Below, piece by piece: positions 1 to 14,359 of a stretch of DNA of 31,203 bases. A program made the translations under genes and the position numbers. The DNA is from Monosiga brevicollis MX1 (Eukaryota; Opisthokonta; Choanoflagellata; Craspedida; Salpingoecidae): assembly GCF_000002865.3 (NCBI RefSeq), contig NW_001865051.1:879735-910937 (forward strand), read 5' to 3'. The notes below the pieces were generated by a model. The model saw only the letters and a list, made by a program, of their open reading frames with translations. It had not been told where the DNA came from and did not search any database. Position 1 is the stretch's first letter. Each line of letters starts with the position of its first letter.

Positions 1-930
1 CCGCGGGGCGTGCCGAGGGCGTGCGAGGTGCACTGTGCGCCGGGTGCGCCGATCGCGTCGTCGTGTCACCGGACATCGGGCCCTCGTTGGCCGCTAGATT
101 ATCCGCGGGTCGTGCCGAGGGCGTGCGAGGTGCACTGTGCGCCGGGTGCGCCGATCGCGTCGTCGTGTCACCGGACATCGGGCCCTCGTTGGCCGCTAGA
201 TTATCCGCGGGTCGTGCCGAGGGCGTGCGAGGTGCACTGTGCGCCGGGTGCGCCGATCGCGTCGTCGTGTCACCGGACATCGGGCCCTCGTTGGCCGCTA
301 GATTTTCCGCGGGTCGTGCCGAGGGCGTGCGAGGTGCACTGTGCGCCGGGTGCGCCGATCGCGTCGTCGTGTCACCGGACATCGGGCCCTCGTTGGCCGC
401 TAGATTATCCGCGGGTCGTGCCGAGGGCGTGCGAGGTGCACTGTGCGCCGGGTGCGCCGATCGCGTCGTCGTGTCACCGGACATCGGGCCCTCGTTGGCC
501 GCTAGATTATCCGCGGGGCGTGCCGAGGGCGTGCGAGGTGCACTGTGCGCCGGGTGCGCCGATCGCGTCGTCGTGTTACCGGACATCGGGCCCTCGGTGG
601 CCGCTAGATTATCCGCGGGTCGTGCCGAGGGCGTGCGAGGTGCACTGTGCGCCGGGTGCGCCGATCGCGTCGTCGTGTCACCGGACATCGGGCCCTCGTT
701 GGCCGCTAGATTATCCGCGGGTCGTGCCGAGGGCGTGCGAGGTGCACTGTGCGCCGGGTGCGCCGATCGCGTCGTCGTGTCACCGGACATCGGGCCCTCG
801 TTGGCCGCTAGATTATCCGCGGGTCGTGCCGAGGGCGTGCGAGGTGCACTGTGCGCCGGGTGCGCCGATCGCGTCGTCGTGTCACCGGACATCGGGCCCT
901 CGTTGGCCGCTAGATTATTCGCAGGCCGTT
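1..930. repeat. 102-bp tandem array, nine copies plus a decayed tenth
   Basis: Units start at 1, 103, 205, 307, 409, 511, 613, 715 and 817, each 102 bp (34 codons); a diverged partial copy starts at 919. Copies differ at only a few sites: T/G in the GCGGGT/GGGGCG segment (copies 1 and 6 carry G), A to T near 304, and C to T plus T to G in copy 6. The unit is open in two plus-strand frames and one minus-strand frame. Only the minus frame continues into a long reading frame with matching older modules, so it is the likely coding frame. There it reads as a 34-residue module with D-N-L, E-G-P and T-T-T-R. There are no spacers, so it is not a CRISPR array. Confidence 0.95.
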
Positions 931-2435
931 GAGCTGGCACCAGGTCAGTTTTCTTGTGCACAAATTCTCTCTTCGTTGTAGTTTCTCCTACCATGACTCC
1001 GGGTTCGGGTTTGAGCGTATCTTTTGGGCGTTGCTCGGGCTCGCGCGCCTTGATAGGCATTGCTCGGAACGTTGACTTGTTCGTTGTTTCTCGTGAACTT
1101 GGTCCTTCTACTACGCACAAATTGTCGACTGGCTTTTTCACTGGAGTTCGTGGCAATGGCGCAAACGCTTGATGCGCTGACTTTGAGCTCGTGTCATCGC
1201 GGCTTGACATTTTGACATGCGGCGCATTGATGCCTGCTGAACCACCCTTGACTTCGTTTCTGCGCTGTAGAATCTGGGAAAGGGATGACGAAGACATCTC
1301 CACGGGTTCATCAAACTGACCAGCTTGTTTGCTTTCTGCAGGAGTAGGTGTCGACTTGGTGTTCCGATCTTTGCGCTTTGCGACCTTGGTCCTATCATCG
1401 GTTCCCTTGCGTAAGTTGCGTTGCCACTTTGAGGCAGGTTCATCAAAGCGGTGCTTGACCTCACGGCGAGAAACGCTTGGTGCTCCTGCTGTTTTTTCGC
1501 GATTGCTGATGCCAGGCTGTTCGCGTCGGACACGATATGTACGTTGGCGCTGCTTCTTCGCTTTGGCCTCGGTTTTTGAGGTCGGCTCAGCTGGCTGAGG
1601 CATTGCTGCGGTTACATTGGTTCCGCTGCCGCTAGCAGAAGCGGTTTCGGGAGTTTTGCGACGGGCAGGAAGCCAGCGCGTAATGCCTGTGGTGCGCCTT
1701 TGCGATGCCTGCTGCGCGGTTGCAGCGCGCACACTGCGGACGTTTGACGCTTTGCTGGAAGCATCAGCTTGTGAAGTAGCGGCACTGGCAATTGCCGTCG
1801 CGTTTGGGGTTGTTGAAGGCGTTTTCGTGCTTGAAAGGGGCGTCGATCCGGAGGGTGAATTGCCCAATGCGTGTTTGGCACCTTTGTCCTGGTTGGCGGC
1901 ACCGGACTTTGGCGCGGTAGAGCTTTTGCCTGTAATTGGATTATAACGGCGAGCAGAACTAGTCGTCACATTGGCTGTCACATTGTCAATGGAACGGGTT
2001 TTCCGTGGGACCACGCTCGAAGGTTCCAGAGTTGCCGTCGCAGACGATGAGCGTTCGCTGACGTGTTGACTGGAGCGGGTGCCTCGTGCAGCTGTGTTTG
2101 CAGCGGTAGCTGTCGCAGTTGCTCCCGAGGCTGGGAGTTGACTGGAAGCGGGTGGTGCGGTTGTTAGAATGGCTGGATGATCGAGCTGCTGCTCAGGGAA
2201 GGCACTTAAAGTAAAGGTATCGCGCCGTGGGCGTTGGCCTGGAGCACCGGCCGCCTGAGAAAAAAGACCGAGCGAGGATGATGAGTGGGAGTGCGATTAC
2301 AATCCGCTGGACCTGCTGAGTGGCAGGGAAGGATTGCGACAAAGGATCGTACGTCGCCAGCTCGGCGCAATGTGATGGTGTTACTCCTGGCCCGGCTTGG
2401 TCGGGTGGCTGTGCTCTCGCCGAAAATACCAGCAT
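1..2435 (-). CDS. SAXO/MAP6-like microtubule-binding repeat protein (5' part, runs off left edge)
   Basis: The minus strand is open without a stop from 2296 to base 1. The first exon is probably 2313-2435 (Met at 2435, in-frame TGA just upstream), joined by a 58-bp phase-0 intron (2255-2312, ending CTTTTTTCTCAG) to an exon from 2254 to the edge. That gives at least about 790 residues. The N-terminal 300-400 residues are Ser/Thr/Ala-rich and include an RRYNPITG stretch. From about 1125 down, modules appear with the pattern D-N-L, E-G-P, T-T, basic/Phe, Arg-Pro. Two are degenerate (35-residue spacing) and nine are nearly identical 34-residue copies. This cadence resembles the Mn modules of SAXO/FAM154 and MAP6 proteins, which bind and stabilise axonemal or stable microtubules. 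The family call is from memory of the consensus, not a search. Exon 1 is the least certain part; the C-terminus lies outside. Confidence 0.68.
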
Positions 2436-3606: not shown

Positions 3607-6007
3607 CTATTCAGCAATGGACATAAAGGCGGAGCTAGGCGCAAACAGCGTTGCCGGCTGTCGCCGATAATTGTGAGGCTTTAAGCTCACGCCGGTCGGC
3701 ACGTTCCAACCACCGCCAACAGCACCGGCACGGCGGTGCAGCGACGGCTGTGGATAGCCGGTCACAGACCCCGGCTGCTCTCTGTGATGGCGACCATCCG
3801 CTTGAGTCGAGCTGGGTTGTGGTGCAGAGTGATGTTGGGCCTGACGTCCAGGGCCCACGGGATCAGAGGTTGGAATTTGTAGAACCCGTCCAAAGCGGTC
3901 GAGTACGGCTTGTGTCTCGTGTCCCGAAACCGGTCGTGTGGACTGCGAGTGTGATGGTGAGCCTTCCACTGGCGCGATGGAAATGGGCAGGGGCTGATGA
4001 CTACGCGCAAACATGCCCTTGCCAATGCCAGAGCTGCCTTGAGGTGAGGACAGGGCAGCCGGGGGACCACGCGCTCTTGGGCTGGTGCCCTGTCGACCGG
4101 GCATAAGGCTTGCGTGCAGTGCATGCTGCTCATAGCGCCGCGGCTGCCGGCTGTCCATGTCTGGAACCTGAACGCGAGCGAGCGCGTTGGAGGCGGCGGC
4201 ACGCTGGTGGTCCAGGTGATGCGCCACATTCTGCATGTTAAGGTGCGACGAATCACCATTGAGACGAGCGCGCGCGCCGCCACTCGACAACGAGCCTGCG
4301 CTGCCATTGGGAGAAGCCCCGTCCAAGGTTCCACCCATGGCATGGCTCGTCTTTCGAAGAGACCCACTACCAGTAGCCACGAGGCCCTCGCTTCCGCCAC
4401 TGCCACCACTGCTGAAACGGCCAAAGCGCGATGGTGTGGGCAAGGCTGAGGGGGCCAGGGACAGAGGATTGACAGCGTTATTCGCAGCCCCTGGAACACG
4501 AGCAGGGGTGGCTTGCCCCAATCCGCGTTGCCCAGTGGCGGCCACAGATGCCCCAGTTCCTGGAACACGAGCAGGGGTGGCTTGCCCCAATCCGCGTTGC
4601 CCAGTGGCGGCCACAGATGCCCCAGTTCCTGGAACACGAGCAGGGGTGGCTTGCCCCAATCCGCGCTGCCCAGTGGCGGCCACAGATGCCATGCCCGAAG
4701 CGCTTGTCATGCCCGCAGAGCGCTGCGTCATGCCAGTGGCGGTAAAGGGACTTGAAGGATTGGGCTGATTGCCCGAGTCGATGCCATTGGAAGTGCCTGT
4801 CGTAGGAGCTTGCGTATCGCGCTGTGACTGTGTCAGGGATGACGGCAGGCTGGTGCCTTCCTCAGTTATCTCCTCACTGGCGCCTGGTACGCTCTCCACC
4901 GAGCCGTCAGCACCAAGCTGCTTATCAGCAAACTCGGCAAAGTAAGACTCGCGAAGCATGTCCTGAGCAGCTGGTCGGAGATAAGGATCGATGGTCAAAA
5001 GCTGCATCAAGGCTTGGCGGAGTTGAGGGGTGTAGACGGAAGGCAGGCGCTTGTCAAAGAGGCCATTGCGAATCTTGTGCATCAGTTCTTGAAGGTTCTT
5101 GGCCTCAAAAGTAGGCTTGAGTGTGCAGGCTTCATACAAGACGCAACCCAAGGCCCTGTGCCAGTGCAAAGAAGAGGACAGTGACATGCCGGCGCAGGTG
5201 CATTAGAATGAGATGAGACTGTGCAGTGGAATGCAAAGACAAGTGTGTGGGGAGCATGGCGCACCAAATGTCGACTTTTTGTGAGTAGGGGATGCCTTTA
5301 GTCTGCTCTGGAGCTTGATAAAGTGGCGTGCCGCAGGGCGTAGAGCAGGTTCGAAGCTGAATACGTTGTGCGTTGTCATCCAGGATGCGAGCACAACCCA
5401 AATCACCAAGCTTGACCACACCCGAGGGCATCAAGAAGATGTTGGCAGACTTGACGTCACGATGAATCATGCCTCGGCGATGGATGTAGGCCAAGGCCTG
5501 CATGATCTGGGTCATCCAAACCATGAGCTGATCTTCGGGCAGGTAGCGCTTGGTGCGCGAGCGCTCGTTTAGGAGCGTAGCCAGATCGCCCTGGTCGGCA
5601 TACTCCATGACAATGTAGACCATGCGTGGGGTTTTGACAACTTCCTGAAACTGAATGATAAAGGGGTGTCGTAACTGAGAGTGCACCTGTGCTTCGCTGC
5701 GAGCCTCCATCATGGCTTGATCGTTGTCAACGCTCATTTCCTTCATGCAAAAGTCTTCTTTCGTAGCCAAGTCGGTGGCCAACCAGGCCTTGCCAAAGGA
5801 ACCCAGTCTAGAGAAGGTACGGAATAGAGATTGATGAAAGCACGGTCATGTCATTTCGTTCCAAAGGCAAGACTAGCAGGGCGCATGCTATGACCACACA
5901 GACTTGGCCCGCACATACCCGATGATGCGTTTCTTCTGATACTTTTGGTGGATCTCAGTCAGGTTGGTGGCATTGCTGAGGTCAAAACGCCCTGGATTGA
6001 GGGCCAT
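3607..6007 (-). CDS. NIMA-related (NEK) serine/threonine protein kinase
   Basis: Three exons: 6007-5919, 5807-5265 and 5155-3607. The introns (111 and 109 bp) have GT-AG ends and keep phase, giving 726 aa. The kinase domain spans about residues 24-280: glycine loop G-L-G-S-F-G (30-35), catalytic Lys52 in CMKEM, HRDVKSAN with catalytic Asp147, Asp165 in a DLG (not DFG) motif, an activation segment with STPCGTPLY, APE at 195-197, then VDIWALGCVLYEA across the second splice. DLG and this C-lobe are typical of NEKs, which act at centrosomes, basal bodies and cilia. The rest is a Ser/Pro/Gly-rich tail with three 23-residue repeats and no RCC1 or coiled-coil domain that I recognise, so the subfamily is not assigned. 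The start MALNPG leaves a short leader before the kinase domain; an upstream in-frame Met at 6223 is less plausible. The gene is head-to-head with the copine gene. Confidence 0.9.
4491..4690 (-). repeat. 69-bp in-frame tandem repeat (three copies) in the kinase tail
   Basis: Copies begin at 4491, 4560 and 4629 and are almost identical. Each encodes 23 residues with ATGQRGLGQATPARVPG as its core. The unit is a whole number of codons, so copy-number change would not shift the frame. Confidence 0.93.
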
Positions 6008-7284: not shown

Positions 7285-10629
<3,345 letters not shown>

Positions 10630-11065: not shown

Positions 11066-11369
11066 TTAACTGGTGTGGTACTACAAAAAGATAGTCACGA
11101 GGTGAGATGCTGGTGTGAAAGCCTCCAAGCTGTATCAAGATTGCAGGCCTCAAAGTGACTCGAGATATCAAAAACTTACCGAGGACATGTCAAATGGATG
11201 ATGATGATAGGAACTGTCATGGTCACCCATGCCGCCGTGCTGGGCACTGCCCCGGCTGGCATCCGAGCTACTACCGGAAGGACCAACAGAGGGCGTGTAC
11301 TTGCTTGAGGCGCTGTAGGGCTGCTGCTGTTGACCTTGGTGGAACATGTAAGGAGGGAAGCCCATGCCA

Positions 11370-11419
<50 letters not shown>

Positions 11420-14359
11420 AGCGCCCATGCCGCCCATAGCGCCCATGCCACCCATGGTGCCCATGCCGCCCATGCCGCCCATAGCGCCCATGCCACCCAT
11501 AGTGCCCATGCCACCCATGGCGCCCATAGCGCTCATGGGGTACACGTAGTTCATGCCGCCCATGGGATACATCCCAGTGTTTTGCTGACCGCGCATGGAT
11601 GAGGGGTTGCCGTGTGACTTGCCGCTGTGCTGCTGCTGGCTACGAGGGCCCGATTGACGACCACCACTGTTGTAGGCATTGTGTGTGCCATAGTAAGCTT
11701 GTTGCTGATAGTTAGCCATGTTGCCCATTGGGTACGAGCCCTTGGTGTAGCCGTGTGACTCGTAGCCTGAAGCCCCAGAATGCTCGTATCCATACGGCAT
11801 ACCCATGTGCCCAGTAGGCATATGTTGGCCTTGCTGCTGGGGCTGAGGCTGTTGCTGCTGCTGCTGCTGCTGCTGCTGAGATTGCGGCTGCTGGGGTTGA
11901 GGCAGCGACGTTTGTTGCTGGGATGGCTGCTGGGGCTGCGCGGGAGCCATCTGGCTGGTCTGATGCGCAGGTGGTTGTTGTGAAGGCATCTGGACCGGGC
12001 TGTGCTGCTGCAGTTGCGGTTGCAGATGTTGCTGCTGCTGCTGCAGGTGTTGCTGTTGTGCCTGCTGCGCAAAGTTGGGGTTGACCGAGGGCTGAGCATC
12101 AGGCGCCGTCACACCCAGACCGCCGAGGGGACCCATGCCAGAGCTAGGAGCATCGATGGAGGTGGCCACGGAAGAGGGGAGGGAAGCAGGCAGCGGGGTG
12201 TTGAACTGATTGTTGAGGGGAGGCAGATCAAATGTGTTGTTGCCAGTGTTGATGGACGACTCGGCGCTAGCAGAGACGGTCGCGGGGGCGGGGGCCGAGA
12301 GAGGGGCAGCTGAGGTAGCAGGGCTCTTGGCACCGACGGGCTCGGGGGCAGTGTCGGCGTGGACGCCGAAATTGATACCCAGGTTGCCGAAGGTGGTGTC
12401 AAAGTTGGTGTTGAGCGAAGGCATCTTGACAACCTCATCATGGCCTGCGGACGTGGTGCGAGTGTACTTGCCAGCACCCTCGAGGGGGGGAAGCCATCCA
12501 GGAGCGGACTTGTCGGCGTCATCCTTGGCGGGCCAGTTGGTCGTCCATTCACTGGCAGCGTTGGTGGTACCCCAGGCATCCTTGGGGGGCGCAGAGCTGG
12601 GAGCAGCAGCGGGAGAAGCCGACACTGCAGGAGGCGCGGCCGCAGGGGCAGCGGGCTCGGTGGGAGCTGCAGGCTCAGTTGCGACGGGTTTAGGGCTGGG
12701 CCAAGACGCTGGCTCGGGCTTGGCAGGCTCCTGCTTGCTGCTGTTGTTGGAACCGGGTGCACCGGCAGACCAAGCATTCCAAGGAGCAGCTGAAGTGACA
12801 GTGGCCGCGGCTGCTGACTCGGGCGCTGCGGCTGGCTCGGGCAGAACAGCAGGGGTGTCCGACTTCTTCGCTGCAGTGGTAGGGTCGGGCAGGACGAGGG
12901 CATCAGCGTTGGCTGTTTCCTCCTTGCGGCCACGACCAGTTTTGCGGGCCTCGGCCTCAGCAGCCGCCGCAGCAGGCGTAGGCTGTGCTGCTGCTGCCGC
13001 TGCAGGGGTGGGTGCCGTCGCCAGCGTGGGTTTGGGAGGCTGGGGCTTTTGACTGTAACATGAGAGGATACAGTACACCACGAGGTGAGAGAAAGGATGG
13101 GAGTCAAGGCAGGTGGTTGGGCAGCCTGAAAGCAATGAGCTGAGATCAAGTAATTGGCAGCGTTGATCTTACCCAAAGAGAAGCTTGGACCAAGTCATGG
13201 GCTGTGGACCCTTGGGCTTTTCGGGTGCCTGCGGGGCCTGTTGTGTTTGTTGCTCCGGCGTGGAAACGGCAGCTTCGGTATCTGCGGCAGGAGTGGATTG
13301 ACGCAGCTCTGGGTTGACGCCACGGCCCGTACCTGCGGCAGCACCACGACCGGCACCACCACGGCCACGGCCACGACCCGTACCACGTCCACGGCCTAAT
13401 CATGCGCGCCCGTCCGGGGGAAGGTCACGAAAGATGGCAATCGTGAGACCTCGAGTTGTCCAACCACATCAATCCAGCCCAGAGAGCAAAGAGGGAAGGA
13501 GATGGGGCAGCTCGAGTAGCAGCTGACAATAAATGAGGCGAGGTCAGAAAAGCACGGTATGCGTACCTCGGCCTCGAGCACCGGCAAAACCGTTACTGTC
13601 GCCTTCGCCCTCACCGCGACCGCGACCACGAGGACGTGAGCCACGCTCACCCCGCGGGGCGCCATTGCTGTGATACTGATTCGAATCGCCGTCACCACGA
13701 GCAGCGGCACGAGCCGTCTTGCTCTTGGACTTTGAAGTCTGTGCCTGGGGCTGTCCATCCCGCGTCAGCTCTTCAAAGGCCCGATCAACATTGTTGTTGC
13801 AATCGCGCAAAGCTGTGACAAGGGTAAGCAGGGCAATGATGTGAGACGGCAAGAAGATGAGGGACGCCATGTGAGTGTGACGCGTTGGCAGGAGGGGGAG
13901 AGCAGGTGAAACATACTAAAGAGCATGTCATCATCTGAAGCATAAGAGCCAACGATGCTCAACTGAGTCTTGAGCTATAAACGCGGAGACGAGTCCCAAA
14001 CAGCGTGAGAGGCATTTGCGGAATGATCTTTTTTTTTTTTTTTTTTTTTAAAAAAAAAAGGGTGTGTGTGTTGGGGGGGGGAGAACAAGAGGAAAAAGAA
14101 GAAACAGATGGGAAGGCGAAGACGAAGGGGCTGACCTTTTTGAAGGCGGCGGAGAGCTCCGAATCAAGCTCGTCCTAGAGAAGGAGAGTGAGAGAGAGAT
14201 GGATGTGAGCCAGAACGGCGACTCGTTTTGGAGACATGCAGAGCTTGAAGGGCATTGAGTGAAAACACGGGAAGAGACGAGACGTACGACAAGTACTGCC
14301 GACATGACGCTGGTGTTGTGCGAGAAGCTGCTGGTAACCACGCTAGAGGGAGAGGCCAT
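11066..14359 (-). CDS. UBAP2L: UBAP2L/Lingerer-like protein (UBA, RGG, Q-rich, Met-Gly repeats)
   Basis: Exons: 14359-14288, 14174-14136, 13974-13917, 13812-13567, 13395-13173, 13052-11180 and probably a four-codon last exon 11080-11066, giving about 841 aa. All joins keep phase. The UBA domain spans about residues 25-72 and has LRDCNNNVDRAFEEL, close to the ALxDCNxDVNRA signature of UBAP2/UBAP2L/Lingerer. An Arg-Gly-rich region follows (about 95-165) and then a long Ala/Pro/Gln-rich chain. Near residue 439 there is LGINFGVH, similar to the conserved LNVQFG motif of UBAP2L. The C-terminus is Tyr/Gly/Met-rich. Animal family members bind RNA-protein complexes and nucleate stress granules. If the perfect GTAAGT at 11179 is not used as a donor, the frame ends three residues later at 11168. 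The gene is tail-to-tail with copine. Confidence 0.85.
11364..11549 (-). repeat. 9-bp coding minisatellite encoding Gly-Gly-Met-type repeats
   Basis: Roughly twenty 9-bp units of CATGCCGCC type encode tandem GGM, AMG and TMG triplets near the C-terminus of the UBAP2L-like protein. Substitutions are mostly Gly/Ala/Thr at one position. The tract is also open in plus-strand frames, which are shadows. Confidence 0.92.
11830..12060 (-). repeat. CAG-type repeats encoding glutamine-rich tracts
   Basis: Runs of CTG on the plus strand read as CAG codons in the UBAP2L-like gene, giving two polyglutamine-like patches separated by Gln/Pro-rich sequence. Leu-rich plus-strand ORFs here are shadows. Confidence 0.9.
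14029..14059. repeat. T21-A10 homopolymer junction in intron 2 of the UBAP2L-like gene
   Basis: Twenty-one T residues are directly followed by ten A residues, so the centre is a perfect T10A10 inverted repeat that could form a hairpin in single-stranded form. It lies between coding exons 2 and 3. Confidence 0.9.

Follow-up and report, generated by a model that had tools for sequence, protein, structure and literature searches.

A probable SAXO-like Mn-repeat gene with an amplified array of histidine-type modules in Monosiga brevicollis

A tandem array at the left end of a 31,203-nucleotide stretch of the Monosiga brevicollis MX1 genome (contig NW_001865051.1, positions 879,735 to 910,937; hereafter called the window) quite probably belongs to a gene for a SAXO-like, Mn-repeat microtubule protein composed of modules of 34-35 residues, as judged from its sequence. 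The encoded protein is probably extended, basic and disordered. We are much less sure of the role of the array itself than of this identity.

Minus-strand reading frame and probable assembly gap

The array occupies window positions 1-929 and consists of 9.1 copies of a 102-bp unit with 98% matches, as determined by TRF. A minus-strand reading frame stays open between 2 and 2296, reaching 1,367 bases past the array. No stop interrupts it in the unique part (930-2296), versus 9 to 21 stops in the other five frames, which supports the earlier note's claim that the minus strand is the coding strand. None of 1,000 dinucleotide shuffles reached the 455 open codons in any of the six frames, and the longest frame found in the shuffled sequences was 359 codons.

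We propose a gene model on the minus strand in which exon 1 (2313..2435) starts from an ATG at 2435, with an in-frame stop upstream, and comprises 41 codons. It would be followed by a 58-base GT...AG intron of phase 0 with a pyrimidine-rich acceptor (2255..2312), and both of these features are model predictions. Exon 2 then continues in the open frame with a unique N-terminal part rich in Ala, Ser, Thr, Arg and Pro (1235..2254), after which comparison of the modules delimits M1 (1130..1234, 35 residues), with His at the Mn aromatic position, M2 (1025..1129, 35 residues), with the Mn signature TTNKSTF, and M3 (923..1024, 34 residues), with the signature TTTKREF. Nine array units of 34 residues come next (5..922, from TRF and the open frame), carrying TTTRSAH, in which His replaces Phe/Tyr. 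The earlier note had described two older modules ahead of the array; such modules are indeed present in the same frame, but there are three of them, and the D-N-L / E-G / T-T / R-P cadence ascribed to them can be seen clearly in M2 and M3 but weakly in M1.

A run of 4,512 Ns lies to the left of the window, which starts exactly where this run ends. Past the N run, in the left flanking sequence (L002), the array resumes in the same frame on the minus strand (L002 5223-4277). Five full units come first; next is a hybrid last module, whose first half is that of an array unit and whose ending is different (TTTLSTF ... LCRP), and a unique tail then leads to the stop at L002:4277. Thus, the frame that was claimed to cross the window edge is found again beyond the gap, and the early stop past that edge, which the earlier note had named as a refuting observation, does not occur in the sequenced part, where the only stop is the one after the tail. 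A single gene thus appears to be split in two by what is probably an assembly gap. In total, 18 complete modules have been sequenced, namely M1, M2, M3, the nine units and the five units on the two sides of the gap, and the last module. The anchor-to-anchor distance over the gap is 4,641 bases, or 45.5 units, so that the length given for the gap has probably been estimated. If the N run consists entirely of array, about 44 further units are missing.

Codon use, a mildly informative criterion here, favored the proposed frame as the best of six in the unique part, although its 0.000 bits per codon fell short of each of the eight training exons (0.013 to 0.149). AlphaFold prediction on 220 residues gave a disordered chain with a pLDDT of 51 and without Mn helices; this model was not usable.

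We also recorded the neighboring genes. A NEK1-like kinase gene lies upstream on the same strand (window 3607-5845, minus strand; best PDB match NEK1, 5e-34) and holds an in-frame 69-bp repeat at 4490-4690, with 2.9 copies and 99% matches. On the other side, a zinc carboxypeptidase exon (L002 2881-3279, plus strand) is convergent with the SAXO-like gene, and both of its PDB matches are cytosolic carboxypeptidase-like protein 5. We take both neighbors to belong to families linked to cilia or tubulin, and their proximity may be due to chance. Further along the window are a copine exon (9325-9783, plus strand; Pfam 1e-20) and a frame for a Gln-rich protein (11168-13168, minus strand) whose Met-Gly-rich repeat comprises 3.9 copies of a 45-bp unit; Pfam gave no match for this frame at E<=1. 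An exon in the genome is identical over 59 residues to UNC18 (PDB 2xhe), which identifies the species as Monosiga brevicollis.

Similarity of single modules to SAXO1

Searches with the whole array were strongly affected by its repetitive nature. A control with the reversed array matched TAL effectors at 4e-11 and, barely over the cut-off, the Pfam family HAMP_N3, and the plus-strand frame 3-932 matched HHH_5 at 2.7e-12. Such false family matches, arising from window 1-981 and 3-932 on the plus strand as well as from the reversed array, are a warning for automatic annotation. They also indicate that E-values for the whole array cannot be trusted; therefore, we discarded its face-value Pfam and PDB E-values and tested single copies. 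This applies to the SAXO/MAP6 profile match expected by the earlier note: a match to PF05217 exists, but it is inflated by the repeat and did not reach the gathering cut-off of 26.5 bits with the whole frame (18.8), with the piece left of the gap (16.6) or with seven units (20.8). Similarly, when the whole frame was searched with phmmer in a set of 177,635 PDB sequences, the single match at E<=10 was SAXO1 (8ou0_D), whose value of 1e-6 is inflated by the repeat. No match was obtained for the non-repetitive pieces of the gene in Pfam, for the frame in NCBIfam, or between the gene and FAP363 in PDB at E<=10.

We then compared sets of modules containing at most one array unit with a segment of SAXO1, using two kinds of permutation as controls. 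The combination of M1, M2, M3, one unit and the last module scored 14.4 bits, a value that none of 1,000 permutations of either kind reached. The score of M2, M3 and the last module was reached by 4 and 1 per 1,000 permutations of the two kinds, that of M2 and M3 alone by 17 and 24, and that of M1 to M3 by 15 and 25. In addition, single modules were scored against a profile of nine SAXO1 modules. One array unit gave 15.5 bits in a gapless alignment over 27 columns, the highest score of all modules, and none of 2,000 shuffles scored as high; the last module gave 9.7 bits, again with 0 of 2,000 shuffles as high. M1, M2 and M3 taken singly did not rise above the shuffles (528, 338 and 119 of 2,000 reached their scores), nor did the N-terminal stretch (1,725 of 2,000). 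For comparison, SAXO1 modules left out one at a time scored 3.8-30.2 bits against their own profile. The resemblance to SAXO/Mn modules asserted by the earlier note thus persists in tests with single copies.

The nine-module profile proved specific, since it found 12 matches in PDB at E<=10, all of them named as axonemal, sperm, flagellar or microtubule-associated proteins, including SAXO1 (by construction), SPM1, DMIP1/STOP, SPAG8 and FAP363. The gene reduced to one unit scored 13.7 bits against this profile (E 0.43 at the size of the PDB set) and FAP363 scored 13.6. A comparison of profile against profile gave an E-value of 5e-5 and a probability of 67%. In 161 kb of DNA, which yielded 3,161 open frames, nine array modules of the window occupied ranks 2-10 with 7.7-8.2 bits, behind an unrelated 11-residue match with 8.4 bits. 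The reciprocal search, with a profile made from the gene's own modules, retrieved no SAXO from PDB and two unrelated weak matches.

The aromatic position and the competing explanations

The Mn unit has been defined as [TS][TS]x4[YF] (PMC10973386), and among the columns of the nine SAXO1 modules only that of Tyr is invariant. M2, M3 and the last module match this pattern, with Phe at the aromatic position (T+6) in three of the four non-array modules. Taking a combined F and Y frequency of 3.5%, the chance of finding such a residue in three of four modules at one preset column is 1.6e-4, and T+6 is the only column of the non-array modules with more than one aromatic residue. Neither M1 nor any of the 14 complete array units matches the pattern; His occupies the position in all of these, that is, in 15 of the 18 complete modules sequenced. 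Given that the array units carry His, the array is an expansion of a variant module and not of the canonical one. The earlier note had supposed that every module contacts microtubules, and this is unsupported, because His replaces the defining aromatic residue in M1 and throughout the array.

The amplification itself appears recent, as the earlier note had claimed: the 14 complete units are near-identical, with an average difference of 1.08% and 28 identical pairs of 91, which fits recent unequal crossing-over or slippage. Only six distinct substitutions occur among the units, four residue-changing and two silent, and these are too few to judge selection. One substitution, N6T, is present in units to the left as well as to the right of the gap. 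All 14 complete units carry TTTRSAH without variation, and there is no frame-breaking change, with the unit length being exactly 34 residues. In its own genome, the unit matched at least seven places, and all seven of these are at this locus. M1 and the array unit have in common the stretch SAH and later PRTP; therefore, the module with His looks older than the amplification.

We considered several other explanations for the locus. One is that the array is a non-coding satellite or a part of a plus-strand repeat protein. As the unit length of 102 bp is divisible by 3, the array can also be read without a stop in two plus frames, and by the same measure of codon use, mildly informative as it is, the proposed frame ranks only fourth of six inside the array, behind two of the plus frames and another minus frame. 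However, every plus frame is interrupted in the unique part by 9-21 stops, the array in the minus frame has diverged modules before it and the hybrid module at its end, and the searches of the genome found the unit at this locus only. Both the plus-strand and the satellite reading were discarded on these grounds, and we regard the explanation as a whole as very improbable. It is also unlikely, though less remote, that the product is a disordered S/T/A/P-rich repeat protein with no microtubule function, whose likeness to SAXO would be due to chance and repeat inflation. Strong inflation was indeed seen with the reversed array, the minus frame has no Pfam match over the cut-off, and the old modules M1, M2 and M3 are not significant singly, but the single-copy tests (0 of 1,000 permutations and 0 of 2,000 shuffles) and the register-specific column of Phe argue against this.

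A stronger competitor, to which we would give somewhat less than an even chance, is that the gene is truly derived from an Mn-repeat protein but contains, as its array, a minisatellite that is degenerate and selectively neutral. In that case, the flanking Phe modules alone would bind, and the array would be a passive disordered spacer whose copy number is irrelevant. Because this explanation has the Mn-repeat origin in common with the one we prefer, the odds of the two overlap. It is consistent with the absence of the aromatic residue from all 14 complete units, with the ratio of residue-changing to silent substitutions, which drift could give, few as the changes are, with the poor codon use of the array, and with the near-perfect in-frame 69-bp repeat in the neighboring gene. 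On the other hand, the array unit outscores all other modules against the SAXO1 profile, at 15.5 bits, and the 34-residue unit has been kept without a frame break and with TTTRSAH invariant, although recent copying alone would also produce this conservation.

Relation to known Mn proteins and a possible role in the microtubule lumen

The modules of the gene are linear, Mn-like and 34-35 residues apart, as in SAXO, where the published spacing is a 15-residue motif plus 18-20 inter-repeat residues (PMC3280300), and the protein is basic and proline-rich (pI 10.8 and 11.4% proline over the right-hand 792 residues of the model). The last module, in which SAXO has Cys-Pro, ends here in LCRP. The N-terminal cysteine motif CxCxxCxCG of SAXO (Dacheux 2012) was not found near the gene, where the 5' end is modelled and an exon could be missed or split; the modelled exon 1 (41 residues) holds one Cys. 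Genome-wide, a DNA pattern for this motif gave 123 matches versus 54 in a backward control, and among the matches listed, four are on the contig of the gene, none of them in or near it, with the nearest at 837,859. Twelve of the 123 matches, picked by eye, showed neither a further SAXO cysteine nor Mn modules. Since the cysteine motif was not found and the Pfam cut-off was not reached, we call the product a SAXO-like or Mn-repeat protein and not a SAXO orthologue.

We also searched the genome for a canonical SAXO gene elsewhere. With PF05217 there was nothing at E<=0.001 and, at E<=10, this gene only, weakly; the SAXO1 segment likewise retrieved only this gene, weakly. These searches ignore introns and score the best candidates only, so that the failure to recover a canonical gene refers to uninterrupted sequence and a split gene could escape. 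According to Dacheux et al. 2012, their survey was unable to find an orthologue of SAXO in Monosiga (PMC3280300), and in the literature searched by these names no paper paired SAXO1 with Monosiga brevicollis or FAM154 with choanoflagellates.

Compared with SAXO1/SAXO2 (FAM154; PF05217), the gene is similar in its linear repeats of about 33-36 residues, TT, closing K/R-P, and basic and proline-rich composition. It is unlike them in that its cysteine motif was not found and its PF05217 match is below the cut-off, and unlike SAXO1 in that its array units have His where the nine SAXO1 modules have the invariant Tyr. The 18 complete modules sequenced here compare with 12 reported for mouse SAXO1 (PMC3280300). 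SPM1 of Toxoplasma also consists of tandem Mn repeats, 5-13 depending on the species, with one proposed per tubulin dimer (PMC8144581); however, a conserved F/Y is part of the Mn motif described for it, its N- and C-terminal domains are its own, and it occurs on the cortical microtubules of a parasite, whereas Monosiga is a free-living flagellate. FAP363 (and MDM1/SAXO6) resembles the gene as a long chain of Mn repeats, and on the SAXO1 profile FAP363 scores 13.6 bits and the gene with a single unit 13.7. Outside its Mn motifs, SAXO6 is described as highly unstructured, and in the same account other SAXO proteins have a spacing of about 40 residues per 8 nm, compared with 34-35 here (PMC13087473). 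MAP6/STOP and MAP6d1 have the Mn unit in common with the gene, but they are vertebrate proteins described with few Mn units and palmitoylatable N-terminal cysteines (PMC3280300, PMC12228683).

Judging from the structures of SPM1, FAP363 and SAXO, TTxxxxF modules would sit inside the microtubule as short helices bound to the intradimer interface of tubulin, with one module per 8-nm dimer. By analogy, the protein may run lengthwise along one protofilament in the lumen of flagellar or basal-body microtubules. The strong anchors would then be the modules with Phe at either end, namely M2, M3 and the last one, and the array of His modules, grown by unequal crossing-over or slippage, might keep the pitch while binding weakly. 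In this way, it could act as a repeated linker or low-affinity rail with a length set by copy number. DM10, which is described among the modules of lumen proteins (PMC10973386), is present in the Monosiga genome (best 5e-31).

We also considered a larger proposal, which we think has only a small chance of being correct. If the gap is filled with units, the gene would contain some 62 modules, and one molecule, with 8 nm for each module, could extend in the lumen over about half a micrometre. In that case, its His units would form a rail of low affinity, possibly sensitive to pH, that connects the canonical anchors, and the protein would be a candidate for a filament running lengthwise in the choanoflagellate lumen, like the rail-MIP of Salpingoeca rosetta. 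The latter is a 3.5-nm lengthwise structure in part of the axonemal repeats, and the account of it in PMC9671500 names no protein; a tie between it and the Monosiga gene is speculation. If the proposal is true, the Mn-like modules would outnumber those given in the cited accounts for the Mn proteins compared here.

The gene is thus a candidate for the SAXO reported as missing from Monosiga in the 2012 survey (PMC3280300), where it was possibly overlooked because its modules have diverged and because the assembly breaks inside the array. It offers a natural test case for whether the Mn aromatic residue is essential for lumen binding, and for whether the number of modules sets the reach of one molecule along the microtubule.
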